DNA of 51,416 nt, from the NCBI GenBank assembly GCA_029561145.1, contig JAKQJM010000028.1:1-51416 (forward strand), in the 5' to 3' direction. Shown in pieces: positions 2,055 to 42,211 of this stretch. A program made the translations under genes and the position numbers. A model generated the notes under the pieces. It worked only from the letters and a program-made list of their open reading frames with translations, searched no databases and was not told the origin of the DNA. Within the stretch, counting starts at the first letter, position 1. Each line of letters opens with the position of its first letter. This DNA comes from Pseudomonadota bacterium. GTDB taxonomy: Bacteria; Pseudomonadota; Gammaproteobacteria; Xanthomonadales; Rhodanobacteraceae.

Positions 2055-2551
2055 CACCGCAGGCACGCAAGATCTGCATGCTCGGCGATTTCGGCGTCGG
2101 CAAGACCAGCCTGGTCGCGCGGTTTGTGCGCAACACGTTTTCCGATGCCTACCTGACGACCGTCGGCGTCAAGGTGGACAGCAAGGAAGTTGCCCTGGCG
2201 AACGGACAGGCCCAGAAGCTCGTGGTCTGGGACATAGCCGGCAGGAGCGCGCTTGACGCGCTCAACATGAGCTACCTGCGCGGTGCCAGCGGATTGCTGC
2301 TGGTTGCCGATGGCACGCGCGAGTCGACCTTGCGCACCGCGATCGACCTGCTCATGCAATCGCGCAGCCTGCTGCCCGATGCGCAGGCTGTGCTGCTGGT
2401 CAACAAGCTCGATCTTGTCGAGCGCTGGGAGGTCGCGCCGTCGACCCTGGTCGAACTGCGCCACACACTGCCGGTGCTCGAGACCAGCGCGCGTGCCGGT
2501 GACGGTGTCGAGCAGGCATTCGCCGAGCTCGCGGGCAGGCTGCAGGCATGA
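2051..2551 (+). CDS. Ras-like small GTPase (bacterial Rab/Rup type)
   Basis: 166 residues, close to a bare Ras-type G domain. P-loop GDFGVGKT is residues 12-19. A switch-I threonine lies in TTVGVK (36-41). The G3 motif WDIAG is 60-64, followed by R65 where Ras has its catalytic glutamine. The G4 motif NKLD is 118-121 and the G5 motif ETSA is 144-147. There is no C-terminal cysteine or membrane segment, so membrane recruitment must come from partners. It overlaps the OmpA-domain gene upstream and the kinase gene downstream by 4 bp each (ATGA), so these three are made together. Prokaryotic Ras-like GTPases such as MglA act with roadblock proteins in polarity and motility; whether this one does is unknown. 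Missing Gln suggests slow intrinsic hydrolysis or arginine-assisted catalysis (inference). Confidence 0.9.
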   Translation: MTPQARKICMLGDFGVGKTSLVARFVRNTFSDAYLTTVGVKVDSKEVALANGQAQKLVVWDIAGRSALDALNMSYLRGASGLLLVADGTRESTLRTAIDLLMQSRSLLPDAQAVLLVNKLDLVERWEVAPSTLVELRHTLPVLETSARAGDGVEQAFAELAGRLQA

Positions 2552-4107
2552 GCAGCGAACTCTCCATTTCCGGTTTTTCAGCCGATGTCGAAAGTCACAT
2601 CGCGCGCTTCCTCTTTGAACGGGCGCAACCGTTGCTGCTCGAGTTCGACAAGTCCTGGCAACTGGTCAACCTGCAGGGGGACACGGCGCGATTCGGCTTT
2701 GATCTCGATGACGCCCGAACCGCGGCGGGTCAGCTGCAGGACCTGTTTCTCGGCATGCCGCTCGATGAAACGATCGATCTGCCTTTTGTGCAGATGCCGA
2801 ATGGGCGCAGCGCACACGTCCACCTGCTGGTCATCGATCGTGGCTACCAGGTGCTCCTGCTCGATGCGCAGGGGGAACATGATCGACAGCAGTCGCAGCA
2901 GCAGTCGGGCAATGAAGCGGTCCTGATCGGGCATCAGAAGACAAAGGCGATCAACCAGTTGCGCCAGATCCGCAGCGAACTCGAGTCGCAACGCGCGCGC
3001 CTGCAGGAGGCCAATGCGCTGAAGAACGCGCTGATCGCGACGCTGAGCCACGATTTCCGCACGCCGCTGACATCGATATTCGGCTACCTGCACCTGCTCG
3101 AGGAGGAGCCCGACAATTCGGCAGGTACCCGGCACGCGCTGCGTGCCTTGCGGCGAAACTCCAATTACCTGTTCACGCTTGCCGAGAACCTGCTCGAGTA
3201 CGCGCGCGCCGATACGCGATCGAGCCTGCTCGCTCCCGTGCGACTCGATCTCTCCGCGCTCGTTGCGGATCTGCTCGGCCTGTTCAAGCCGATGGCCGCC
3301 GAAAAGGCACTGACGTTCTCGATCGCGCTCGACAAAGCGGACAGCGAAGAACCCCTCCTTGATGAGCTGCGCCTGCGCCAGGTGCTGGTCAATCTGATCT
3401 CGAACGCCGTGCGTTATACGCAGAAGGGCGGGGTTGGCGTCCAGTTGCTGTGGAAGGACGGCGCATTGAAGATCGAGGTCCGCGACACCGGCATCGGCAT
3501 CGCCGAGGAATTCCGCGAGAAGGTGTTCATTGCCTTCAATCGCGTCGGCCAGGCTGCCGGTAGCGGCGCAGGACTCGGCTTGAGCATCGTCAAGCGCCTG
3601 GTCAGGCAGATGCATGGCACGCTGGAGCTGCACTCGAAGGTGGGTGAAGGTTCGTGCTTCCGCATTGTCCTGCCCGGTTTGGCGAAACTGGTTCCCGAGG
3701 CGGATGCGGATGCTGTGGAAGCAGCACCGTCGAGAATCGAGCGCATGCATACGGTCCTCATCGTCGATGACGGTCCTGACATCACCCACCTGCTCGAGGT
3801 CCTGCTTTCCGGCATGGGATACCGTGTGCGCATCGTCGGTGACGCCACTTCGGCCGTCGAAAGCGCGTTGGCGGATCCACCCGACGTGCTGCTGGTCGAC
3901 GTCGAGCTGCCTGGTCTGTCCGGCAATACGGCCGTGTTCCGCCTGCGTGCGAAAGGCTATCGCGGACATATCGTCACCTTGTCGGCGACGCCAACCGAGG
4001 AAGCGCGCAAGGTCGCGCTGAACGCCGGAGCGAACCAGTACATCACCAAGCCGATCGACATCGAGCAACTCGCTCGCACCATGCAGCGCGCCGTCGCGTC
4101 GTCCTGA
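2548..4107 (+). CDS. Hybrid sensor histidine kinase with C-terminal receiver domain
   Basis: 519 residues, no signal peptide or membrane helix, so soluble. Residues about 20-110 look like a PAS-type input fold, followed by a coiled linker (112-160). The HisKA box has the phospho-acceptor H168 in SHDFRTPLTSIFGYL. The ATPase domain shows the N box (NLISNAVRY, 282-290), the G1 box (DTGIGI, 313-318) and the G2 box (GAGLGLSIVKR, 340-350). A receiver domain follows (about 401-515) with the acidic pair in VDDGPD, phospho-acceptor D451 in LLVDVELPG and the conserved lysine in ITKPID. No DNA-binding output domain is present, so the receiver probably relays phosphate or modulates the kinase. It is the last gene of the operon and overlaps the GTPase gene by 4 bp. 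The combination suggests that GTPase state and phosphorelay state are coupled; the ligand is unknown. Confidence 0.92.
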   Translation: MSSELSISGFSADVESHIARFLFERAQPLLLEFDKSWQLVNLQGDTARFGFDLDDARTAAGQLQDLFLGMPLDETIDLPFVQMPNGRSAHVHLLVIDRGYQVLLLDAQGEHDRQQSQQQSGNEAVLIGHQKTKAINQLRQIRSELESQRARLQEANALKNALIATLSHDFRTPLTSIFGYLHLLEEEPDNSAGTRHALRALRRNSNYLFTLAENLLEYARADTRSSLLAPVRLDLSALVADLLGLFKPMAAEKALTFSIALDKADSEEPLLDELRLRQVLVNLISNAVRYTQKGGVGVQLLWKDGALKIEVRDTGIGIAEEFREKVFIAFNRVGQAAGSGAGLGLSIVKRLVRQMHGTLELHSKVGEGSCFRIVLPGLAKLVPEADADAVEAAPSRIERMHTVLIVDDGPDITHLLEVLLSGMGYRVRIVGDATSAVESALADPPDVLLVDVELPGLSGNTAVFRLRAKGYRGHIVTLSATPTEEARKVALNAGANQYITKPIDIEQLARTMQRAVASS

Positions 4108-9956: not shown

Positions 9957-12167
9957 ATGAACAAGACAGTTATTGTCATGGGTGCATTTGCGTTCGCAAT
10001 CGCTCAGTGCCCGGTAGCCAGCGTCCGTGCGGAGGATTCCGCGCCGCCAGCCGACAATCCGAAGGACCGCGTCGAATTGCCGAAAATCGAAGTCCGTGAG
10101 CGGCGCTCGCCGGATGACACCCGACCGAAGCTCCAGCACATCATGAAGGAGGTCGATGGTCCGCTGATAACGGTGACCAAGAAGACCTCGATCACCAGGC
10201 TCGATTCGATCCCGACCGTGGTCGACAACAACCTGCGTGCGCTGTTCGCGCAGACGCCGGGTCTGTTCGTCTCCGAGCAGCAGTCGCCGGGGCAGGCCAA
10301 CCTGAGCTACCGCGGCATCGGCAATCCGCAGGAATCCGAGTTCGTAACGGTGCTGCTCGATGGCATCCCGCTGATGTCGGACTGGATCGGCTATCCGACG
10401 ATCTATACGCTGCCGCTGCCGCAGCAGATTTCCGAAGTGCAATTGATCCGCGGCGGCAGCTCGCTGCTGTACGGTCCCGAGCCTCCGCCGGTGGTCAACA
10501 TGGTCAGCCGCAAGCCGGTCACCGATCGTGCGCTGGCGGGCTATGCCGAAGCGGTCGTCGGCAGCAACGGCCTGTTTGGCTCGTTCAACCAGATCTCCGG
10601 TACGTCGGGGAACTGGGACTACCTGGCGGACGCGCACTATCGGACCAGCGACGGCGAGCGCGACAACGGCGATTCGACCGTGCGCGGCGCCGACCTGCAT
10701 CTCGGCTACAGCCCGGACGACATGGCGCACACGACGCTCGACCTGCACGTCTCGCAACTCGAGACCGGCGATCCCGGCAAGCTGAGCTATCCTCAATTCA
10801 TCGCCGATCCGGATCAGTCGCCGACCCCGTACAACAAGCTGTGGACCGATCGCTACGTGCTCGCCTTGACCGACGATCGTTTCTTCAGCGAGAAGACCGA
10901 GTTGGTGACCAAGCTCTGGGGCGGCTATCAGGACAATGCTTCGCGCGCGCAGGATCGTGGTGCTGCTCCAACCACGGCAACGCTGCAGGACGACCAGTTC
11001 CGGTTTTACGGCATCGATGCGCGCATGCTGCACCGCTGGGGCCGCGGCAACGCACTGACCGTCGGCACGACGATGTATCACTCGGACGCGCCATTCCGCC
11101 AGTTCACGACCGACGGCTTGACGCCCGATCGCTATGATCGCTATGGCGTTCCTTGCGCGAGCGTCGCATCGAAGAACTGTGCGCGCCTGCGTCAGGAACG
11201 TTCGACCGACTACGCCGCCGTGTTTGCCGAGAACGTGTTCCGTTTCGAGGGCGGCTGGCATTTCGTGCCGTCCGTGCGCATCGAGCGCGAGAAGGTCAAG
11301 ATCGATGAAACGATCCGCCCGCCGAACCTCACCCGCGGCCTGGTCGATCGGGAAGTCACCCATAACGTGCCCTTGTTCGGACTGGGCTTCGGCAACGATT
11401 TCGGTCGCGGCAACGAGACCTATTTCAATGTCTCGCAGGGCTGGCGCCCGGTGCGCTACTTCGACGTCGGCTCGCCGTTCGGCAATACTTCGCCGGATCC
11501 GATCAACGATCCCGATCCGACCCATGTGTTGTCGTGGGAAGCCGGTGTCCATGGCACGCCGGCCGATGGACTTTTCTACGACGTAAGCCTGTTCCGCATC
11601 GACGTCCAGGATCGCATCGAATCGCAGCAGATCCCGAATGCGCCTCCCGGCAACACGATCAACGTCAATACCGGCGACACGCGCCACCGCGGATTCGAGG
11701 GGCAGATCGACTACGACTTCCTTGCAGCTGCCGATCCGAAGACCAGCTGCCACCTGTCGGTGTTCGCCAACCTGAGCCTGCTCGACTCGGACTTCACTGC
11801 ATCGAACCGCGGGTTTGTCGGCAACACGCCTGCGTTCTCGCCGGACTACCTCGCCCGTGTCGGCCTCGCTTATCGCGAGGACAAGAAGTTCAAGTTCGCG
11901 CTGTCGGTGGTCTCGGTGGGCAGCCAGTACTGGCAGGATTCGAACCTCGACAATGCCCTGCCGACGCAGCCGGCTTACATTCCCGCCAAGGTACCGTCGT
12001 ACACGGTTGCCGATCTGTCTGCCGACTGGTGGTTGACGCCGGATATACGCCTGCTCGGCGGGATCTCGAACATCGCCGACAAGACCTACTACGCACGCGT
12101 GTTCGGCGGCGGCCTTGAGCCGGCGATCGGACGCACGGTTCACGTCGGTGCGGCCTGGGAATTTTGA
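9957..12167 (+). CDS. TonB-dependent outer-membrane receptor (FecA-like, ligand unknown)
   Basis: 736 residues from ATG 9957, which has a strong SD (GAGGAAAAA); the frame is open upstream but the signal peptide begins here (MNKTVIVMGAFAFAIAQC...SVRAE, cleavage near residue 30). The plug domain spans roughly 75-210: LDSIPTVVDNNLRALFAQTP, then LSYRGIGNPQESEFVTVLLDG and IRGGSSLLYGPEPPPVVNMV. The barrel follows and ends in the aromatic VGAAWEF needed for BAM recognition. The plug segment has EPPP where Fe-citrate receptors usually have a Gly-rich stretch. The layout is closest to FecA/siderophore receptors, but no Fur box or FecIR genes are seen. It is followed by a lipoprotein and a large exported protein on the same strand. 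Confidence 0.93.
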   Translation: MNKTVIVMGAFAFAIAQCPVASVRAEDSAPPADNPKDRVELPKIEVRERRSPDDTRPKLQHIMKEVDGPLITVTKKTSITRLDSIPTVVDNNLRALFAQTPGLFVSEQQSPGQANLSYRGIGNPQESEFVTVLLDGIPLMSDWIGYPTIYTLPLPQQISEVQLIRGGSSLLYGPEPPPVVNMVSRKPVTDRALAGYAEAVVGSNGLFGSFNQISGTSGNWDYLADAHYRTSDGERDNGDSTVRGADLHLGYSPDDMAHTTLDLHVSQLETGDPGKLSYPQFIADPDQSPTPYNKLWTDRYVLALTDDRFFSEKTELVTKLWGGYQDNASRAQDRGAAPTTATLQDDQFRFYGIDARMLHRWGRGNALTVGTTMYHSDAPFRQFTTDGLTPDRYDRYGVPCASVASKNCARLRQERSTDYAAVFAENVFRFEGGWHFVPSVRIEREKVKIDETIRPPNLTRGLVDREVTHNVPLFGLGFGNDFGRGNETYFNVSQGWRPVRYFDVGSPFGNTSPDPINDPDPTHVLSWEAGVHGTPADGLFYDVSLFRIDVQDRIESQQIPNAPPGNTINVNTGDTRHRGFEGQIDYDFLAAADPKTSCHLSVFANLSLLDSDFTASNRGFVGNTPAFSPDYLARVGLAYREDKKFKFALSVVSVGSQYWQDSNLDNALPTQPAYIPAKVPSYTVADLSADWWLTPDIRLLGGISNIADKTYYARVFGGGLEPAIGRTVHVGAAWEF

Positions 12168-13256: not shown

Positions 13257-16187
13257 ATGATGGTTCGCAAGACATTGCTTGTCGTGGCCGTTGCTGTGCT
13301 CGGAATCGCCTCGGCGATGGCGGCAGAAAAGGCTGTTCCTTCCCAAGTCTCCACCAACGCGGACGGTATCGTCGTGCGTACGGGTGCCGAATGGGTCAGT
13401 GCACCCTCCGTTCCGGAATCGTTTTTCCTCGATGCACGGACCCGCCCGATCATCTCGCCATGGCGGCCAGGCGATCCGATCCGCGAGATCCCGCGCCGCT
13501 TCGAAGGCGATCAACGCGTCATCGACATGCGTCCCGATCCGGTCAACCCGGTCGCCGCCGGCCCCGACATCCTCGTCGAACTGCAACGTGCGTTCGGTGA
13601 AGGAGTCGACAGCCGCGCTTTCACGACGCCACTCGTCAACAAGGACGCGCAAGGTTTCAGTGGTGTCTTTCCGCCCGATCCCAGCGGTGATGTCGGTGGC
13701 GGTTTCTACGTCCAGTCGATCAACGGCAGTGGCGGCTCCACCTACGTCGTCTACAACACGAACAATGGCTCGGTCGCTGCTGGCCCCTTCAACATGGAAG
13801 GCCTGGGTTCCGGCGGTGCCTGCGCGAGCGGAAACGGTGATCCTGTCGTCCTGTTCGATCAGCTGGCCAGCCGCTGGTTGCTTACCGAATTCTCGAGCAG
13901 CGGCAACAACCTCTGCATCTACGTGAGCGCCACGAGCAATCCGGTAACAACGACCTGGACCCGCTACGCGTTCGTGCCACCGAGTTTCCCGGACTATCCG
14001 AAGTACGGCGTGTGGCCCGACGCCTACTATGTCGGCGCGAACCAGAGCAACGGCGTGTATGCGCTCGATCGCACCAAGATGCTCGCCGGCCTGGCTGCGA
14101 CCCTCCAGCGATTCTCGGTGCCGACGCTTTCCGAACTCGGCTTCCAGATGTTGCCGCCGGCATCGATCAATGGCATCGACCTTCCGCCGGCCGGTGCGCC
14201 TGGTGTTTTCGTGCGCCAGGTCGATGATGAACGAAACAACCCCGGCAGCAATGATCCGGTGCACGACCGCATCGAGCTGTTCGCCTACCACGTCGATTTC
14301 ACGACACCGGCGAACTCGACGCTGACCGGCCCGACCCCGATCCAGATCAACGAATTCGATCGCGCGTTCTCGATACCGTCGGGTTTTGGCGCGATTCCGC
14401 AGCCCGGTGTATCGCGTCTGCTCGATCCTCTCATGGAAGTGATCATGTTCCCGGTGCACTACCGTGCGTTCGGCACGACCGAAACGATCACCGGCAATTT
14501 CGTGACCAAGATCGGTACGAACAACCAGTCCGGAATCCGCTGGTTCGAGTTGCGCAGGACCGGCGGTGTGGCCGGCGGCTGGTCGCTGTTCCAGGAAGGC
14601 ACATTCGCTCCTGCGGACACACCGGGACAGCAGACCAACCGCTGGATGGGTGCGACTGCGATGGACTCGGCCGGCAATATCGCGATGGGTTACAGCATCG
14701 ATCGCGTGACGCCTGCGCTGTTTCCGAGCCTCGCCTACGTGGGCCGGCAAGCCGGCGATCCGGCGGGAGTCATGACCACCGGAGAAACCATGCTGGTCAC
14801 CGGCGCGAGTTCGCAGAGCAACTTCGACCGCTGGGGCGATTACTTCCAGATGGGCGTCGATCCAGTCGATGGCTGCACGTTCTGGTTCACCGGCGAATAC
14901 ATGGCCGCGGCGAACTGGAATACGCGCATCGCCTCGTTCCGCTTTGATGCATGCGGCACGCCCACCTTCACGATGTCCGGTTCGCCGTTGACCCAGAACG
15001 TCTGTGCGGCCAGTCCGTCGCCATCGGCACTGACTCCGGTGGCCATCACGGTCGGTTCGGTCTCGGGTTTCACTTCGCCGGTAAACCTCGGTTTCGGCGC
15101 AGGCCTTCCCGTCGGTTTCGGTGGATCGTATACGGTGACACCGGTCAATCCGCCCGGTTCATCGCAGGCGAACCTGACCGTGACCAATGCGGCAGCGCCT
15201 GGGCTCAATGCGCTGACCCTGCGCGGAAGTTCAGGTGGCACCGATCGCGATCTCGCTCTCAATGTGACTGTGGCGACCTTGGTGCCTGCCGCATCGACAC
15301 TGAGTGCTCCGGCCAACAACGCCATCGACGTTTCGTCCACGCCGACGTTCAGCTGGACCGCGTCGAGCCAGAGCACCAGTTATCTGATCGAGATCGCGAC
15401 CGACGTCGGCTTCGGCAACATCATCCTCTCGCAATCGGTCAGCGGCACGAGCTTCCAGCCGGCGGCGGCGTTGCCGACGAACACGCAGATCTACTGGCGC
15501 GTCACGGCGAACAACATCTGCGGCGCGTCGACGCCGAGCGCGACCTTCACGTTCCGCACGATCAGCGCTCCGGGCGACTGCTCGGTGGGTTCGTTCACGA
15601 ATGTGGTGTACAGCGACAACATGGAGTCCGGCCTTTCGGGATGGACGCACAGCGCGTCGACCGGCACCGACACATGGACCCAAAGCACGGCACGTTCAAC
15701 GAGCCCGACCCATTCGTGGTTCGCAGTTGATCCTGCCCTGGCCTCCGACCAGCGACTGGTCTCGCCGACCATTGCCGTACCGACGACGTTGACCAACTTG
15801 AACCTGCAGTTCCAGCATTGGCGCGACATCGAGAACGTCAGCGGTTCGGCGACCGAGTGCTGGGATGGCTCGATCCTCGAAGCCTCGATCGACGGCGGCG
15901 CCTTCACCCAGGTAAGTGGAGCGCAGATCCAGGTCGGCGCTTATACCGGCGCGCTGCGCACGAGTGCGAACCCGCTGGCCGGCCTGCAGGCATGGTGCGG
16001 TGCGGTTCCGTTCAACAAGGTCATCGTCGACCTGTCGACATTCGCCGGCCACAACGCACAGTTCCGCTTCCGCCTGGGCAGCGACGCCTCGGTCGGACGC
16101 GAGGGCTGGTATATCGATGACGTCAAGGTCCAGGGTTGTTCGACCTCGGATGTCATCTATGCCGATGGATTCGATCCGACCCTGTAG
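13257..16187 (+). CDS. Large exported multidomain surface protein with Ig/FnIII-like and MAM-like domains
   Basis: 976 residues from the tandem ATG-ATG at 13257; 15 more in-frame codons upstream carry no signal features. A Sec signal peptide (KTLLVVAVAVLGIASAMA) is cleaved near residue 22. Residues about 50-565 form a Trp/Tyr/Asp-rich region that may be a beta-propeller; no catalytic motif is recognised. Residues about 570-678 look Ig-like, about 681-769 FnIII-like (STPTFSWTASSQSTSYLIEI), and about 787-961 like a MAM/jelly-roll ligand-binding domain (NMESGLSGW ... GWYIDDVKV). The protein ends VIYADGFDPTL; short tails of the form (F/Y)-x-(D/N)-GF(E/D) end many exported proteins in this bacterial order as far as I recall. 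A strong terminator follows. Likely secreted or surface-attached; substrate unknown. Confidence 0.82.
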   Translation: MMVRKTLLVVAVAVLGIASAMAAEKAVPSQVSTNADGIVVRTGAEWVSAPSVPESFFLDARTRPIISPWRPGDPIREIPRRFEGDQRVIDMRPDPVNPVAAGPDILVELQRAFGEGVDSRAFTTPLVNKDAQGFSGVFPPDPSGDVGGGFYVQSINGSGGSTYVVYNTNNGSVAAGPFNMEGLGSGGACASGNGDPVVLFDQLASRWLLTEFSSSGNNLCIYVSATSNPVTTTWTRYAFVPPSFPDYPKYGVWPDAYYVGANQSNGVYALDRTKMLAGLAATLQRFSVPTLSELGFQMLPPASINGIDLPPAGAPGVFVRQVDDERNNPGSNDPVHDRIELFAYHVDFTTPANSTLTGPTPIQINEFDRAFSIPSGFGAIPQPGVSRLLDPLMEVIMFPVHYRAFGTTETITGNFVTKIGTNNQSGIRWFELRRTGGVAGGWSLFQEGTFAPADTPGQQTNRWMGATAMDSAGNIAMGYSIDRVTPALFPSLAYVGRQAGDPAGVMTTGETMLVTGASSQSNFDRWGDYFQMGVDPVDGCTFWFTGEYMAAANWNTRIASFRFDACGTPTFTMSGSPLTQNVCAASPSPSALTPVAITVGSVSGFTSPVNLGFGAGLPVGFGGSYTVTPVNPPGSSQANLTVTNAAAPGLNALTLRGSSGGTDRDLALNVTVATLVPAASTLSAPANNAIDVSSTPTFSWTASSQSTSYLIEIATDVGFGNIILSQSVSGTSFQPAAALPTNTQIYWRVTANNICGASTPSATFTFRTISAPGDCSVGSFTNVVYSDNMESGLSGWTHSASTGTDTWTQSTARSTSPTHSWFAVDPALASDQRLVSPTIAVPTTLTNLNLQFQHWRDIENVSGSATECWDGSILEASIDGGAFTQVSGAQIQVGAYTGALRTSANPLAGLQAWCGAVPFNKVIVDLSTFAGHNAQFRFRLGSDASVGREGWYIDDVKVQGCSTSDVIYADGFDPTL

Positions 16188-38193: not shown

Positions 38194-40101
38194 ATGAAAT
38201 TGCAGGTTCCGTTTGTGCAACTGCCCCTCGTGTTCGATGCGCCGCGACTTCTCGCCGAAGTCGATCGGCTCGGCGAGAGCGCATGGCGTCCGCATCCGCA
38301 GGGCTTTGCGGGCAATTCGGCCTTGCCCTTGATCGCGGTCAATGGGGATCCGTCCAGCGATTCGATCTCTGGGCCGATGCGTCCGACCGCACATCTCGAT
38401 GCGTGTCCGTATCTGCGCCAGATCCTTGCCAGTATCGGCGCGGTTTGGGGGCGCAGCCGGCTCATGCGTCTCTCCGGTCATGCCGAAGTGCCCATGCATG
38501 CCGACCTGGCCTACTACTGGCGTGACCGCGTGCGCGTGCACGTGCCGATACAAACCCAGCCTACGGTTCGTTTCCAGTGCGGTGACGCCGAAGTGAACAT
38601 GGCCGAAGGCGAGTGCTGGATCTTCGACACCTGGCGCCTGCACCGGGTGATCAATGCCAACCCGGCGCAACGCATCCACCTGGTTGCCGATACGGTCGGC
38701 AGCGAACGTTTCTGGGAACACGCCAGCGGCGGGCGCGTGCCGGGACGACCGGTACCCAACTGGCAACCGCGCCGGATCGGTCCCGATCCGGAACGCGTTC
38801 CTGAACTCGTCTACGAATCCGAGAATCTCGGAAGCGTGATGACACCCTGGGAATTGCGCGAGCATCTCAATTTCCTGCTCGGCGAATCGATACCGACGCC
38901 ACAGATGGCCACGATCCAGCAGGTGTGCGCGCGCTTCAATGCAACCTGGCTCGGACTGTGGGCGCGCTATGGTCCGAGCGAGAAAGGCTGGTCGGATTAT
39001 CGTGCCGCGCTCGAACCGTTCTCGGCGGAAATGCAGCGATTGGCGGAAACCCTGCTGCTCAGAAACGGCATGCGCTTCCTTGGTGCGTTCCGCGCGATGA
39101 TCGTGCAGGCGGCGCTGAGCGATGATCCTGCGCGCGGACTCGAGGTCAAGGGTGACTACGATCCCGATGCTTTCGCCGAATCACCCGGTAGCGAAAGCAG
39201 GACCGTCACGGCCGCGACGCAACCACGTGTCGAGTCGAATCCGGACCGCACGCCGGTCGATCGGACCGGGCGGCGATTCGATCGCCCGGTCATCATCCTG
39301 TCTTCACCACGTTCGGGTTCGACCCTGCTCTTCGAGACGCTGATGCGGGCGCCGGGTCTGCACACGGTGGGTGGCGAGAGCCACGTCCAGATCGAAGGTC
39401 TGGACGAACTGCATCCGGCAGCGCGCAACTTCGATTCGAACCGACTCGATGCCGATGCGGCGACGCCCGAGTTGATCGAACGGCTGCGCGAACGATTCGA
39501 GGCTGGCTTGCGCGATCGCGATGGTGGGCGTCCGCCGACCGGGCCGATTCGACTGCTCGAGAAAACACCGAAGAACGCGTTGCGGATCCCGTTCCTGCGC
39601 AAGGTGTTTCCCGATGCGCATTTCGTCTACCTGTATCGCGATCCGCGTGAGGTGCTGTCGAGCATGATCGAGGCCTGGACCTCGGGCAACTTTCGAACCT
39701 ATCCGCGATTGCCGGGCTGGCAAGGTCCGGCCTGGTCGCTGGTGCTGGTGCCGGGGTGGCGCGAATGGAGCGGTCGCCCGTTGCCCGAAATCGTCGCGCG
39801 CCAATGGGAGGCGACGACGCGCATCCTGCTCGACGATCTGGCGGCGGTCACCGGCGAGCGCGTTCATCGGATCCGCTACGACCGCTTCCTCGCCGATCCG
39901 CAAGCCCAGGTCCGCCGACTCTGCAACGAACTCGATCTGGCCTGGGATCTTGAACTCGAAGCCCATCTGCCGCATTCGCGCTACACCATGTCGGCCCCTG
40001 CGCCCGAGAAATGGCGGCGCCATGAACGCGAGATCGAGGCAGTGATGCCCCTGATCGAGGCGACACGCATGCGCGCGGAGTCCTTCTTGCGCGATCGCTA
40101 G
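38194..40101 (+). CDS. Fusion of an Asp/Asn beta-hydroxylase-type 2-oxoglutarate oxygenase with a sulfotransferase
   Basis: 635 residues from ATG 38194. Residues about 1-190 are an Asp/Asn beta-hydroxylase-type (PF05118-like) double-stranded beta helix: Fe ligands H102 and D104 in VPMHADLAYYW, RVHVPIQTQPTVRF, then GECWIFDTWRLHRVINANP with H150 and the 2-oxoglutarate arginine R160 in QRIHLVAD. Residues about 200-355 form a helical and then disordered linker (Ser/Arg/Thr-rich). Residues about 364-635 are a PAPS-dependent sulfotransferase: 5'-phosphosulfate loop LSSPRSGSTLLFETL, RLLEKTPKN, the 3'-phosphate motif FVYLYRDPREVLSSM, and YDRFLADP. No signal peptide, so cytosolic. The natural prediction is hydroxylation followed by O-sulfation of one substrate. 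The substrate is unknown. Confidence 0.88.
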   Translation: MKLQVPFVQLPLVFDAPRLLAEVDRLGESAWRPHPQGFAGNSALPLIAVNGDPSSDSISGPMRPTAHLDACPYLRQILASIGAVWGRSRLMRLSGHAEVPMHADLAYYWRDRVRVHVPIQTQPTVRFQCGDAEVNMAEGECWIFDTWRLHRVINANPAQRIHLVADTVGSERFWEHASGGRVPGRPVPNWQPRRIGPDPERVPELVYESENLGSVMTPWELREHLNFLLGESIPTPQMATIQQVCARFNATWLGLWARYGPSEKGWSDYRAALEPFSAEMQRLAETLLLRNGMRFLGAFRAMIVQAALSDDPARGLEVKGDYDPDAFAESPGSESRTVTAATQPRVESNPDRTPVDRTGRRFDRPVIILSSPRSGSTLLFETLMRAPGLHTVGGESHVQIEGLDELHPAARNFDSNRLDADAATPELIERLRERFEAGLRDRDGGRPPTGPIRLLEKTPKNALRIPFLRKVFPDAHFVYLYRDPREVLSSMIEAWTSGNFRTYPRLPGWQGPAWSLVLVPGWREWSGRPLPEIVARQWEATTRILLDDLAAVTGERVHRIRYDRFLADPQAQVRRLCNELDLAWDLELEAHLPHSRYTMSAPAPEKWRRHEREIEAVMPLIEATRMRAESFLRDR

Positions 40102-40228
40102 CCCATCGTTCAGCCGGCGCTACAAGTCGGTCGGCACAATGGGGGCGTTCAAGGTCTGCCGAAATCACGTCCGGGTGATCCCGGAACGCTGCGGCATCCG
40201 AATCGTCACCGACTCAAGGAGCTGACTC

Positions 40229-40849
40229 ATGGCTGCAGCTAGACCCTTCGTCTCAGACATCGCGAACATTCGCAAGCGTGCGCGTGAGCATATCGAGCGT
40301 GGCGCCGTCACCGACGGCTACAAGGCCGACCGCGACACCGTGATCAAGATACTCAACGAGGCGCTCGCGACGGAAATCGTCTGCGTACTCCGCTACAAGT
40401 ATCACCACTACATGGCATCGGGCATCAATGCGCAGAGTGTGGCGGCCGAATTCCTCGAACATGCCAACGAGGAGCAGGGGCATGCCGACCAGATCGCGGA
40501 GCGCATCACCCAGCTTGGCGGCGCGCCGAATTTCTCGCCGGAAGGAATGCTGACGCGCAGCCATTCCGACTATGTGGAGGGCGATGATCTCGTCGACATG
40601 ATCAAGGAAAACCTCGTGGCCGAGCGCATCGCGATCGACAGTTATCGCGAGATCGTCGCCTATCTCGGCACGGCCGACTCGACCACGCGCCGCATCATGG
40701 AAGGAATCCTCGCAGTCGAGGAAGAGCACGCCGAGGACATGAGCACCCTGCTCGAGCAGCTTGGCAAGAAAGGCGAGCCCGCGAAGCCGGCCAAACGCCG
40801 CTCGGCGCCCGCGAAGGCCGACAACAACGGAAGGAAGTCCGCGCGTTGA
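40229..40849 (+). CDS. Ferritin-like protein (bacterioferritin/Dps superfamily) with a basic C-terminal tail
   Basis: 206 residues. Four-helix ferritin core: helix A with LNEALATEIVCVLRYKYHHY, helix B with FLEHANEEQGHADQIAERI, helix C with MIKENLVAERIAIDSYREIV, helix D with ILAVEEEHAEDMSTLLEQL. The E, ExxH, E, ExxH set gives a di-iron ferroxidase site. Residues about 180-206 form a Lys/Ala/Pro/Arg tail (KPAKRRSAPAKADNNGRKSA) that looks like a DNA- or RNA-binding extension. SD AAGGAG precedes the ATG. It lies between the fused hydroxylase-sulfotransferase and the convergent split pair. Storage or detoxification of iron is likely; a link to the Fe(II)-dependent hydroxylases is only a possibility. 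Confidence 0.9.
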   Translation: MAAARPFVSDIANIRKRAREHIERGAVTDGYKADRDTVIKILNEALATEIVCVLRYKYHHYMASGINAQSVAAEFLEHANEEQGHADQIAERITQLGGAPNFSPEGMLTRSHSDYVEGDDLVDMIKENLVAERIAIDSYREIVAYLGTADSTTRRIMEGILAVEEEHAEDMSTLLEQLGKKGEPAKPAKRRSAPAKADNNGRKSAR

Positions 40850-40865
40850 GCGCAACGAACGCTCA
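40847..40865. terminator. Hairpin shared by two convergent stop codons
   Basis: TGAGCG (40847-40852) pairs with CGCTCA (40860-40865) around CAACGAA. The first arm begins with the stop of the ferritin-like gene and the second ends with the stop of the sulfotransferase on the other strand. Short and without U tracts; a weak bidirectional end at most. Confidence 0.4.
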
Positions 40866-41558
40866 GCCGTCGAAGCGGTAACCGTACTTCTGGATGAGCG
40901 ACTGGTCGCGTTCGGCTACGAGCGCGACCAGTTCTTCATCGTAATATTCGTCGATCGAATCGCGTTTCGACGCATTGCGCGGCGCTGCCTGTTCGATGAA
41001 ATCGCGTAGCGCGGGCGCCATGGCGCCGTCGATGCCCTGCAGGAAATCGAGCAGATCGGCGCGCAGGTTTTCGACACGACCGATCGTCGCCCGATGCATT
41101 GCGTCGCCGTACATGTAGTCGTGGAGATAGCTGTAGAAGCCCATGCCCGAGTCGCGGATCGGCGCGAGCGCAAAGCCGGGCAGATTCAGGCCCTGATTGG
41201 CGTAGGCGTTTGGCAACAGGCCGATCAAGGCATCGAGCTTTCCGCTGCCGCTGCCGAGATCGAGCAGGTTGCGCAAGGTGCCGCGAAAATCGAGCGAACG
41301 GTTTTCACTCGCCGCCCGAAACAGGACATTGGGTTGCGCCATCCGCGACTGGAACGCGTACCAGGATGCGTAGTAGCTCCACGGACTGCGCACGAAGCCG
41401 AGCACGGGCAGGTCAGCCAGTTCCGCCGGAATCGCCCGGCTTGGCAGGTGGTAGCCGAGCATCCGCGCCTCGGGAAAGAAGCGCATCAGGCATTCGTTGA
41501 CGAAGGTGCCGCCCGATTTGTGCAGATGGACATAGACGAACTTGCGCGTGGCGATCAT
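40863..41558 (-). CDS. Stand-alone sulfotransferase family protein
   Basis: 231 residues from the ATG at 41558, which overlaps the hydroxylase stop by 4 bp; a longer open frame upstream only shadows the hydroxylase. The N-terminal FVYVHLHKSGGTFVNECL is the 5'-phosphosulfate (PAPS) loop of the cytosolic sulfotransferase type (K-S-G-G-T), and LGFVRSPWSYYASWYAF gives the 3'-phosphate site (R57, S58). The C-terminus EYYDEELVALVAERDQSLIQ is typical of short bacterial members. No TM segment is seen. Translation coupled to the hydroxylase argues that both act on the same substrate. Pairwise similarity to the sulfotransferase half of the fusion is low outside the loops. Confidence 0.85.
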   Translation of the reverse strand: MIATRKFVYVHLHKSGGTFVNECLMRFFPEARMLGYHLPSRAIPAELADLPVLGFVRSPWSYYASWYAFQSRMAQPNVLFRAASENRSLDFRGTLRNLLDLGSGSGKLDALIGLLPNAYANQGLNLPGFALAPIRDSGMGFYSYLHDYMYGDAMHRATIGRVENLRADLLDFLQGIDGAMAPALRDFIEQAAPRNASKRDSIDEYYDEELVALVAERDQSLIQKYGYRFDG

Positions 41559-42211
41559 GCGCGGCGGGCTTGGGCCGCACCGGCACTCAGCAGCGCCTCG
41601 ATCGCGCGATCGCTTCGTCCAAGGCCGCGATCGGCCTTGGCCAGCAGGCCCACCAATGCCGGACTGCAAAGGAAGTCGCAAATCATGTGGATGCGCGACT
41701 GGCCTGCATGCGCATTGACCACGCCATGTTCGGCGCTGTTGTTGAGCGCCCAGATTTCGCCCGGACGCATGTGGTAGTTGAGTCCCGCGCAATACATCCA
41801 GACGTCGTCATTGGTCGTGATCGGGAAATGCAGCCGGATCGTCTTGCTGAAATAGTCGGCGCGATCGATATGCGGAGCGATCACCGCCCCCGCCGGCAGC
41901 ATGGCTAGCAGGCAACGCATCGGCTGGGCCGGGACCAGCTGCTCGATCAGTTCGCGCAGATAGGGTACGTGCGCGATCGCCTCGCGCTCGGCGATCGGCA
42001 GTTCGCCTTCGGCCGGCGCGTGGCCGCGCAGGAAGATCGCCTGGGCCGGATTGTGCACACCGACACGCCCGCCACGGTGGCCCCACGAGCCATCCGGCAG
42101 CGCCGCGATATCAGCGAGCGCTCGTTCGACATCGAAATCGATGCCAAGGCGCGCGCAGCCGCCGATCAGGGTGACCTTGTCGAGCAGAGGTTGGTCGGGA
42201 AGGTTGAGCAT
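41555..42211 (-). CDS. Stand-alone Asp/Asn beta-hydroxylase-type 2-oxoglutarate oxygenase
   Basis: 218 residues. Fe ligands are H114 and D116 in VIAPHIDRADYFSKTIR and H162 in ALNNSAEHGVVNAHAG; R173 in SRIHMICDF should bind 2-oxoglutarate. The C-terminal part aligns by eye with the N-terminal domain of the fusion protein: both share the pattern G-E-x-W-x4-to-6-H-x-V-x-N-A-x4-R-I-H-x3-D. This makes the two oxygenases paralogues. It is the first gene of a two-gene unit with the sulfotransferase. No signal peptide. Predicted to hydroxylate an amino-acid residue, peptide or small amide; no substrate gene is seen nearby. Confidence 0.88.
   Translation of the reverse strand: MLNLPDQPLLDKVTLIGGCARLGIDFDVERALADIAALPDGSWGHRGGRVGVHNPAQAIFLRGHAPAEGELPIAEREAIAHVPYLRELIEQLVPAQPMRCLLAMLPAGAVIAPHIDRADYFSKTIRLHFPITTNDDVWMYCAGLNYHMRPGEIWALNNSAEHGVVNAHAGQSRIHMICDFLCSPALVGLLAKADRGLGRSDRAIEALLSAGAAQARRA

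Follow-up and report, generated by a model that had tools for sequence, protein, structure and literature searches.

Two gene units on opposite strands of a 51,416-nucleotide stretch of DNA (hereafter 'the window'), one a single gene that joins a 2-oxoglutarate oxygenase to a sulfotransferase (ST) and the other an overlapping pair of genes for a separate oxygenase and a separate ST-fold protein, can be read as two branches of a single hydroxylation-plus-sulfation system, operating together with a TonB-dependent receptor cassette that lies on contig C73 of the same genome, a reading that we give about an even chance of being correct. According to this scheme, the proline-hydroxylase-like oxygenase of the fusion would add a hydroxyl group to an unactivated carbon, and its ST, carried on a flexible linker of ~40 residues, would then sulfate what the oxygenase had made, with PAPS as donor and most likely at the new hydroxyl; the divergent pair would perform like chemistry at a different site or on a different partner. 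A peptide or protein chain, encountered in the cytoplasm before export, would probably be the substrate. We infer that the enzymes are catalytically active, act in that order through one shared oxygen atom, and serve the C73 cassette.

The fusion protein (635 residues; positions 38194-40101, plus strand), delineated by profile match, alignment and a predicted model, consists of a PF05118 oxygenase, a helical middle domain and a PF13469 ST. Its oxygenase domain (residues 1-190; 38194-38763, plus strand) matches PF05118 over residues 65-167 at 51.7 bits (Pfam cut-off 22.6), and its ST domain (residues 362-634; 39277-40095, plus strand) matches PF13469 over residues 365-585 at 96.7 bits (cut-off 27); both assignments agree with alignment and fold. 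Between them lie, on the same strand, the middle domain (residues 191-312; 38764-39129), which stays with the oxygenase in unfused relatives, and a probably disordered, low-confidence linker (residues 321-359; 39154-39270; pLDDT below 50 at 321-324 and 326-359), and the predicted model has no fixed domain arrangement (pTM 0.56). In the PF05118 family, two histidines and one aspartate bind the metal and an arginine binds 2-oxoglutarate, roles that we take to be filled here by H102, D104 and H150 and by R160; PAPS is presumably bound, as in the ST family, by the PRSGS loop (372-376), R482 and S490. The preliminary description had placed this protein, its two domains and its oxygenase residues correctly, and the decay of active sites among homologues that it had considered as a possible objection is not seen in the fusions aligned: metal ligands and PAPS-loop residues (HDHR; PRSGS, R482, S490) are invariant in 50/50 aligned fusions, a set that comprises P0001, 46 of the 71 fusions admitted by a filter on length and three-part make-up (which would miss decayed or truncated fusions), and L047, L048 and L054. 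A single scan returned 453 relatives of the fusion. With regard to a plasmid or phage origin, P0001 has 12 matches to plasmid records (2 of which cover 80% or more of it) and one to phage records, over 12% of its length.

The second unit, on the minus strand, is separated from the fusion by gaps of 0.76 kb (to the ST) and 1.45 kb (to the oxygenase). Its oxygenase (218 residues; 41555-42211), assigned by profile and tree, scores 55.1 bits against PF05118 (cut-off 22.6) and carries the HDHR pattern at H114, D116, H162 and R173, and its gene overlaps that of the ST by 4 bp (ATGA, 41555-41558), the residues and the 4-bp overlap being as originally described. The label first attached to the split ST (231 residues; 40863-41558) had rested on motifs, since neither Pfam (E up to 1) nor NCBIfam (E up to 0.1) returns a match. 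Its predicted model (pLDDT 87.9) lends that label a weak measure of agreement, in that the best 50 of 262 PDB matches are sulfotransferases (including Teg12, which we take to be one), with a best E of 7.8e-4, one match at E ≤0.001 and TM-scores of 0.31-0.58. The protein also shares motifs and 28-30% identity with four others, one of which was scored and belongs to PF03567 (56.7 bits, cut-off 22); judged by its sequence, the split ST is best called PF03567-like, yet below membership of that family. The fusion (pN/pS 0.28-0.36 against three congeners), the split oxygenase (0.31-0.36) and the split ST (0.41-0.50) are all under purifying selection.

The two units had been presented as a single enzyme combination in fused and split form, a view that we abandon: the oxygenases, at 30% identity, are paralogues in only a loose sense and fall into different, supported clades (in a tree flagged for long branches), and the STs belong to different families. 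For the same reasons, an origin of the divergent pair by fission of the fusion is rejected. True split versions of the fusion, with adjacent or overlapping genes, are found in other genomes, at loci L173, L178, L180 and L181, and three-domain versions occur alongside fused and split ones. A ferritin/bacterioferritin-like gene that lies between the window's two units (40229-40849, plus strand; profile match) was considered as a further component and set aside as probably no part of the system, since two (L040 and L041) of the four congeners with both units have no space for it between them.

One argument that oxygenase and ST act together is how regularly they are found together. Among 200 Lysobacterales genomes there are 56 relatives of the split oxygenase (two of them the window's own), of which 17 are fused to an ST and a further 27 are unfused with an ST within 3 kb; this figure of 44/56 is partly circular, because three of the profiles used (ST2, P3 and STx) were made for this analysis from genes beside oxygenases. 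A stricter count, tallied by hand and confined to PF13469-type STs, finds one within 3 kb of 22 of 39 unfused oxygenases. The expected frequency of a chance ST neighbour is about 1.4% per oxygenase (an estimate that ignores shared ancestry); co-occurrence no better than chance, which the preliminary description had named as a refutation, is not what is found. As a control, LpxO-like members of PF05118, a label given on frame length (267-331 aa) and strength of match, have an ST within 3 kb in one case (G054) of seven in 30 genomes. For eight of the 56 oxygenases no ST is within reach, and three of these eight lie within 1.5 kb of a contig end.

The partners of these oxygenases vary, and include fused STs, split STs, STs with TPR domains (TPR-STs), PF03567-type STs and a weakly PF13469-like ST family. 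One locus (L138) packs five oxygenases and five STs, recognised by Pfam or by our own profiles, into 13.8 kb, and a single frame in G016 carries both an oxygenase and an ST half. Fusions in either order had been envisaged, and the reverse order is represented by one probable case, L187, in which the ST part is seen only with our own profile (179 bits) and Pfam lists no ST. Gene calls in unannotated loci were made with a simple codon-usage script, and their starts may be off. Across a wider set of PF05118 domains, HDHR is kept in 60/65; three of the exceptions are TPR-AspH-like proteins with H-x-G, and the other two are decayed oxygenase-TIGR03032 proteins whose lost metal ligands count against the generality of the pairing (no literature on DUF4915/TIGR03032 was found in open-access full text). 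A PF05118 gene on contig C95, at first taken to be LpxO-like, is a TPR-AspH-like protein, with no ST seen within 9 kb.

It could be argued that these are ordinary enzymes whose proximity reflects chance, or conserved gene order around thiC, with no functional link. The 56 oxygenases come from related genomes and are therefore not independent, and thiC is in view at 30 of 77 fusion loci, a finding in keeping with conserved gene order. (The 77 derive from 80 loci, three of which lack a called fusion; seven loci duplicated between collections were removed before neighbour clusters were counted, and were retained here.) Against this, the linkage spans clades, families, orders and several ST families, includes direct fusion, and far exceeds the chance frequency given above, so that we disfavour this explanation as highly improbable. 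A role for thiC itself as a functional partner, through thiamine chemistry, was likewise set aside in favour of conserved gene order, because 47/77 fusions have no thiC in view (some stretches being short). The functional link between oxygenase and ST is thus supported, and the original interpretation as a whole partly so.

What is new beyond that interpretation is the setting of these genes, which includes TonB-dependent receptors, TPR-STs, and PF13640 and other 2-oxoglutarate oxygenases. The C73 cassette consists of a receptor, two TPR-STs and two PF13640 oxygenases, and an XOO1806-family protein is encoded next to the receptor; TPR-AspH-like proteins are also present in receptor clusters. 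On an Asticcacaulis plasmid, a receptor, a PF03567-like ST, a PF05118 oxygenase, a TPR-ST and a fusion follow one another on a single strand, and the genes of the first three enzymes overlap by 4 bp. Among the 30 fusion loci with thiC in view, none has a TPR-ST and five have a receptor in view, so that the receptor link of thiC-type loci, the window included, rests on comparison within the genus. There, the pilU receptor cassette and the oxygenase-middle oxygenase are both present in eight of ten genomes and both absent in two; three genomes carry the oxygenase-middle unit within the cassette, unfused, whereas in five it is joined to an ST and sits at the thiC locus. A point against this association is that even the two cassette-less genomes encode receptor homologues (36-37% identity), and contain weak PF13469 matches, at other places. 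Receptor identity follows the enzyme set: receptors from four other species with the fusion are 76-87% identical to the window genome's cassette receptor, and those from three species with another enzyme set 49-51%, a pattern that ordinary kinship could also produce. An APS kinase gene, for PAPS, is present in the genome, and an Rfam search of the receptor's conserved upstream stretch returned no match.

Among solved structures, the fusion's oxygenase half is closest to L-proline cis-4-hydroxylase (4P7W; profile E 5.2e-12), and its fold matches those of proline hydroxylases (4P7W and proline 3-hydroxylase, 1E5R; E 2.4e-11), at only 18-19% identity. Proline hydroxylases are single-function enzymes that act on free proline and have no ST, and this preference for a free amino acid speaks against a protein substrate. 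The AspH/LpxO-type hydroxylases share the PF05118 family, and AspH is itself a fold match of the fusion's oxygenase half; however, whereas the seven LpxO-like members span the whole profile (E 2.5e-46 or better), the window's two oxygenases lack such a full-length match, covering only positions 49/50-154 of 157 (E 1e-13 to 1e-14). The ST half finds its best fold and sequence matches in tyrosylprotein sulfotransferases and the CurM sulfotransferase, at 18-22% identity; the former are eukaryotic Golgi enzymes and the latter is part of a polyketide synthase. A further parallel is RaxST, a PAPS sulfotransferase of a related bacterium (Xanthomonas) that modifies the secreted peptide RaxX by tyrosine sulfation; we know of no oxygenase partner or TonB receptor for it.

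These likenesses also permit the two activities to be separated, with the enzymes marking different residues of one peptide or protein (hydroxyproline or hydroxy-Asp/Asn on the one hand, for instance, and sulfotyrosine on the other, as in the plant peptide PSY1). The proximity of the ST half to tyrosylprotein sulfotransferases and of the oxygenase half to proline hydroxylases would suit such an arrangement, as would the TPR domains of several partner enzymes, which would favour peptide binding. That fusion recurs, and that the oxygenases pair repeatedly with different families of ST, are more simply accounted for if one enzyme produces the other's substrate, and we consider marking of separate residues somewhat unlikely.

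The pair might instead act on a small molecule (a free amino acid, a lipid or a carrier-bound acid) or on a dedicated small peptide, the sulfate perhaps serving as a leaving group to create a double bond, as it does in elimination by CurM. The matches of the ST half to CurM and olefin synthase sulfotransferases are consistent with this account, and of the oxygenases with solved structures the nearest take free proline as substrate or belong to a nucleoside-antibiotic pathway. Enzymes of these kinds are on record beside RiPP-type genes: ortholog numbers 1738-1748 of one tabulation place an aspartyl beta-hydroxylase and two sulfotransferases near lasso-peptide B2, PqqD and asparagine-synthase-like proteins (PMC10040529), and an excerpt of another study describes sulfotransferases in 17 biarylitide clusters and an Asp/Asn beta-hydroxylase in another RiPP cluster (PMC13417212). 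At the loci studied here, by contrast, nothing recognisable as a RiPP precursor or maturation gene was seen (with general rather than dedicated RiPP tools), and no carrier protein, thioesterase or RiPP gene was noticed in the 45 commonest neighbour clusters, most of them without a family scan. Among 329 small frames in the gaps of eight cassettes no clear candidate for a precursor gene stood out, those that recur being antisense to the receptor leader or within the TPR parts of STs. Since TPR-linked STs and AspH-like TPR oxygenases moreover suggest larger substrates, tailoring of a small molecule or RiPP seems distinctly unlikely.

The reading that we prefer, a coupled hydroxylation and sulfation linked to the receptor cassette, may also be extended, tentatively, to a general surface-modification system of Lysobacterales and Caulobacterales, in which several families of 2-oxoglutarate oxygenases and PAPS-dependent STs would place O-sulfated hydroxy-amino-acids on a TonB-dependent receptor or on a peptide handled by it; in so general a form we think it rather unlikely. 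The enzymes in that extension would be cytoplasmic and often adjacent or fused, and the receptor would be the most constant of their partners that are not enzymes.

No description of bacterial hydroxylation followed by sulfation of one site was found in open-access full text (which misses most subscription papers). The coupled scheme predicts a mass shift of +95.95 Da, from O plus SO3, at a single residue, which could be sought by mass spectrometry in genera with cultured strains (Dokdonella, Rhodanobacter and Asticcacaulis). If true, it would constitute a bacterial modification system in which hydroxylation and then sulfation occur at one site, would assign a role to several hundred proteins, among them some that carry no annotation beyond 'sulfotransferase' or 'aspartyl/asparaginyl beta-hydroxylase domain-containing protein', and would provide receptor-linked modification clusters with a testable question as to their substrate.

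The genome that holds the window (3.6 Mb, completeness 99.42%) carries there a 635-residue fusion of a PF05118 oxygenase to a sulfotransferase (38194-40101, forward strand), together with a separate oxygenase (41555-42211, reverse strand) and a separate sulfotransferase (40863-41558, reverse strand), all three just as the preliminary description had them. Each gene is under purifying selection (pN/pS 0.28-0.50 against three congeners). The separate sulfotransferase had no match in Pfam and NCBIfam searches; it shares 28-30% identity and common motifs with four small proteins of related loci, of which the one that was scored is PF03567. Its predicted model (pLDDT 87.9) recovers sulfotransferases, weakly, among the 50 PDB matches listed, where the best E value is 7.8e-4 and only that row reaches 0.001 or better.

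Other genes of the window deserve a brief mention. A ferritin-like gene (40229-40849, forward strand) sits between the fusion and the split pair, and at 17 of 107 loci a member of its cluster lies close to an oxygenase. A TonB-dependent receptor (9957-12167, forward strand) lies ~26 kb from the fusion and is a different gene from the receptor on contig C73 that is discussed below. At 2078-2551 (forward strand) lies the gene for a small GTPase of the Ras type (PF00071, E 1.3e-27), overlapping that of a hybrid histidine kinase (2548-4107), a finding that seems out of the ordinary for a bacterium.

The association of such oxygenases with sulfotransferases was measured by using the separate oxygenase (P0002) to search 200 Lysobacterales genomes (E cut-off 1e-10). 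This yielded 56 matches in 49 genomes (the window's own genes are two of them), all located in fetched stretches or in the window. In 17 cases the oxygenase is fused to a sulfotransferase; in 27 others a sulfotransferase lies no more than 3 kb away, and in four it lies at 3-9 kb. The remaining eight have none, and three of these are no more than 1.5 kb from the end of their contig. Because 30 of the genomes contain 239 PF13469 matches in ~120 Mb, a neighbor within 3 kb would be expected by chance in 1.4% of cases, so the co-occurrence that had been proposed does exceed chance. When PF13469-type partners alone are counted, 22 of the 39 unfused oxygenases qualify (binomial 7e-31, a figure that ignores ancestry). 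Of the seven LpxO-like members of PF05118 that were taken as a control, one lies no more than 3 kb from a PF13469 gene; this control excludes TPR-AspH-like PF05118 genes, several of which are also near sulfotransferases. An LpxO-like gene at G054:C8:450708-452127, with a PF13469 gene ~0.6 kb off, is a possible lead toward a hydroxylated-and-sulfated lipid A.

A profile scan of 84,980 species, with one genome each, found 453 relatives of the fusion. The best 80 of the 453 were retained, in 77 of which a fusion was called, and they include Dokdonella, Rhodanobacter, Dyella, Rudaea, Pseudoxanthomonas, Luteimonas, Arenimonas, Caulobacter/Caulobacteraceae and Hyphomonadaceae; plasmid-borne copies are present in Diaphorobacter and Asticcacaulis. 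Across the 50 aligned fusions, no variation occurs at H102, D104, H150, R160, R482, S490 or in the PRSGS loop. Second copies occur nearby at some loci (two fusions in L068/L170 and in L077; a fusion and a free oxygenase in L048). Some fusions bear a third domain, TIGR03032/DUF4915, recognized by family scan in L050, by alignment in L049 and by our own profile in L183 and L208, and in Diaphorobacter this protein is encoded by a separate next gene with a 4-bp overlap. Overall, the domain is joined to an oxygenase or an oxygenase-sulfotransferase in L049, L050, L057, L058, L172, L182, L183 and L208, and adjoins one in L254; no mention of DUF4915 or TIGR03032 was found in the open-access literature. 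Of the four oxygenase-TIGR03032 proteins without a sulfotransferase (L057, L058, L172 and L182), L058 and L182 have lost the metal ligands, and in the same alignment three TPR-AspH-like domains display H-x-G in place of H-x-D, as does human AspH.

The pairing takes several other forms. Unfused homologues of both halves are adjacent or overlapping in L173, L178, L180 and L181, and short oxygenases adjoin TPR-sulfotransferases or, in L179, L185, L188, L218 and L206, touch a weakly PF13469-like sulfotransferase (the two scored, L179 and L188, reach 27.9 bits, the cut-off being 27). A search for fusions in either order had been suggested; the order opposite to the window's has one candidate, L187, which looks like such a fusion and whose sulfotransferase part was detected only by our own profile and not by Pfam. 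The window's two pairings had been regarded as fused and split versions of one enzyme couple. A tree of 65 domains assigns the two oxygenases to separate supported clades and nests, among the fusions, free oxygenases whose sulfotransferase partners are of other kinds (several joins, including that of the separate oxygenase, carry a long-branch warning); in addition, a relative of the split pair in genome G092 (L169, 9.5 kb) has no fusion in view. The split pair is therefore a second, separately assembled pairing rather than a split form of the fusion.

The model of the fusion (pLDDT 89.0, pTM 0.56) is confident for residues ~1-310 and 362-634, with a low-confidence stretch (321-359) between them; no mutual arrangement of the two domains was predicted with confidence, and the protein looks in this model like two domains on a flexible tether. 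The oxygenase part is nearest to L-proline cis-4-hydroxylase, then to proline 3-hydroxylase, a nucleoside-antibiotic hydroxylase and AspH, and the sulfotransferase part is nearest to tyrosylprotein sulfotransferases and CurM.

The surroundings of the fusion differ according to whether thiC is in view. The 47 loci without it include a TPR-sulfotransferase in 20 and a TonB-dependent receptor in 15, versus none and five, respectively, of the 30 loci with it; set against a background of 145 receptors in ~26 Mb from six genomes, the enrichment is strong for sulfotransferases and modest for receptors. Two Rhodanobacter loci (L081 and L082) bring together a receptor, several TPR-sulfotransferases, a fusion and an AspH-like TPR oxygenase. 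Within 13.8 kb, locus L138 has three oxygenases over the Pfam cut-offs (two PF13640, one PF13759) and one below, with one PF00685 sulfotransferase by Pfam and, by our own profiles, two PF05118 domains and four sulfotransferase domains. In Asticcacaulis, a receptor, a PF03567-like sulfotransferase, a PF05118 oxygenase, a TPR-sulfotransferase and a fusion follow one another on one strand, the first three enzymes overlapping by 4 bp (in the record, this fusion is annotated for its sulfotransferase half only, the full frame being our own translation). Its oxygenase and small sulfotransferase are remote from those of the window (35% over 82 residues and 30% over 73, respectively).

It is the genus comparison alone that ties the thiC-type loci, the window's included, to a receptor. 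The pilU neighborhood was compared in ten genomes of the genus, eight of which have a cassette there, comprising a receptor, an XOO1806-family protein, one or two TPR-sulfotransferases and oxygenases. In the window's genome it forms a second oxygenase-sulfotransferase cluster, situated between hslO and pilU (L222, G000:C73:1-20000), with the receptor, two each of TPR-sulfotransferases and PF13640 oxygenases, and a 350-residue protein with a sub-threshold PF13469 match. Five cassette genomes, this one included, share the two TPR-sulfotransferases, the 350-residue protein and PF13640-type oxygenases (Pfam-scored in C73 only; the P4H-like one was not found in G006), and at the thiC locus they have, together with the split pair, a PF05118-sulfotransferase fusion. 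In G007-G009 the cassette itself includes the oxygenase with its middle domain, and a search for the fusion found none. G001 and G005 have pilU and no cassette gene within the 19 kb fetched; a search with the fusion protein gave no match at E 0.001, and each has one strong, LpxO-like PF05118 match, weak PF13469 matches (three and two, respectively) and receptor homologues at 36-37% elsewhere. Between the cassette receptor of the window's genome and its counterparts, identity is 76-87% in the four other species that have the fusion and 49-51% in the remaining three. This co-presence is suggestive rather than proof, since ten genomes are few and related. Upstream of the cassette receptor and in its signal-peptide region (MRLTNNELLKAVRLALYAG...; L222 ~15430-15520, reverse strand, with counterparts in L053 and L234-L237), conservation between species is striking; an Rfam search with the upstream stretch gave no match.

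No substrate came to light: when 329 small frames from gaps in the eight cassettes were compared, none stood out as a clear precursor gene. No hydroxylase-sulfotransferase system of this kind was found described in the open-access literature, where the nearest hints come from passages in PMC10040529 and PMC13417212. The oxygenase-sulfotransferase association is real, conserved and non-random, and linkage strongly supports a coupling between 2-oxoglutarate oxygenases and PAPS sulfotransferases. Both catalytic activities are predicted, as is their action in sequence on one oxygen atom; from such single-site chemistry, through a peptide or protein substrate, to a role for the receptor, the steps become increasingly inferential.
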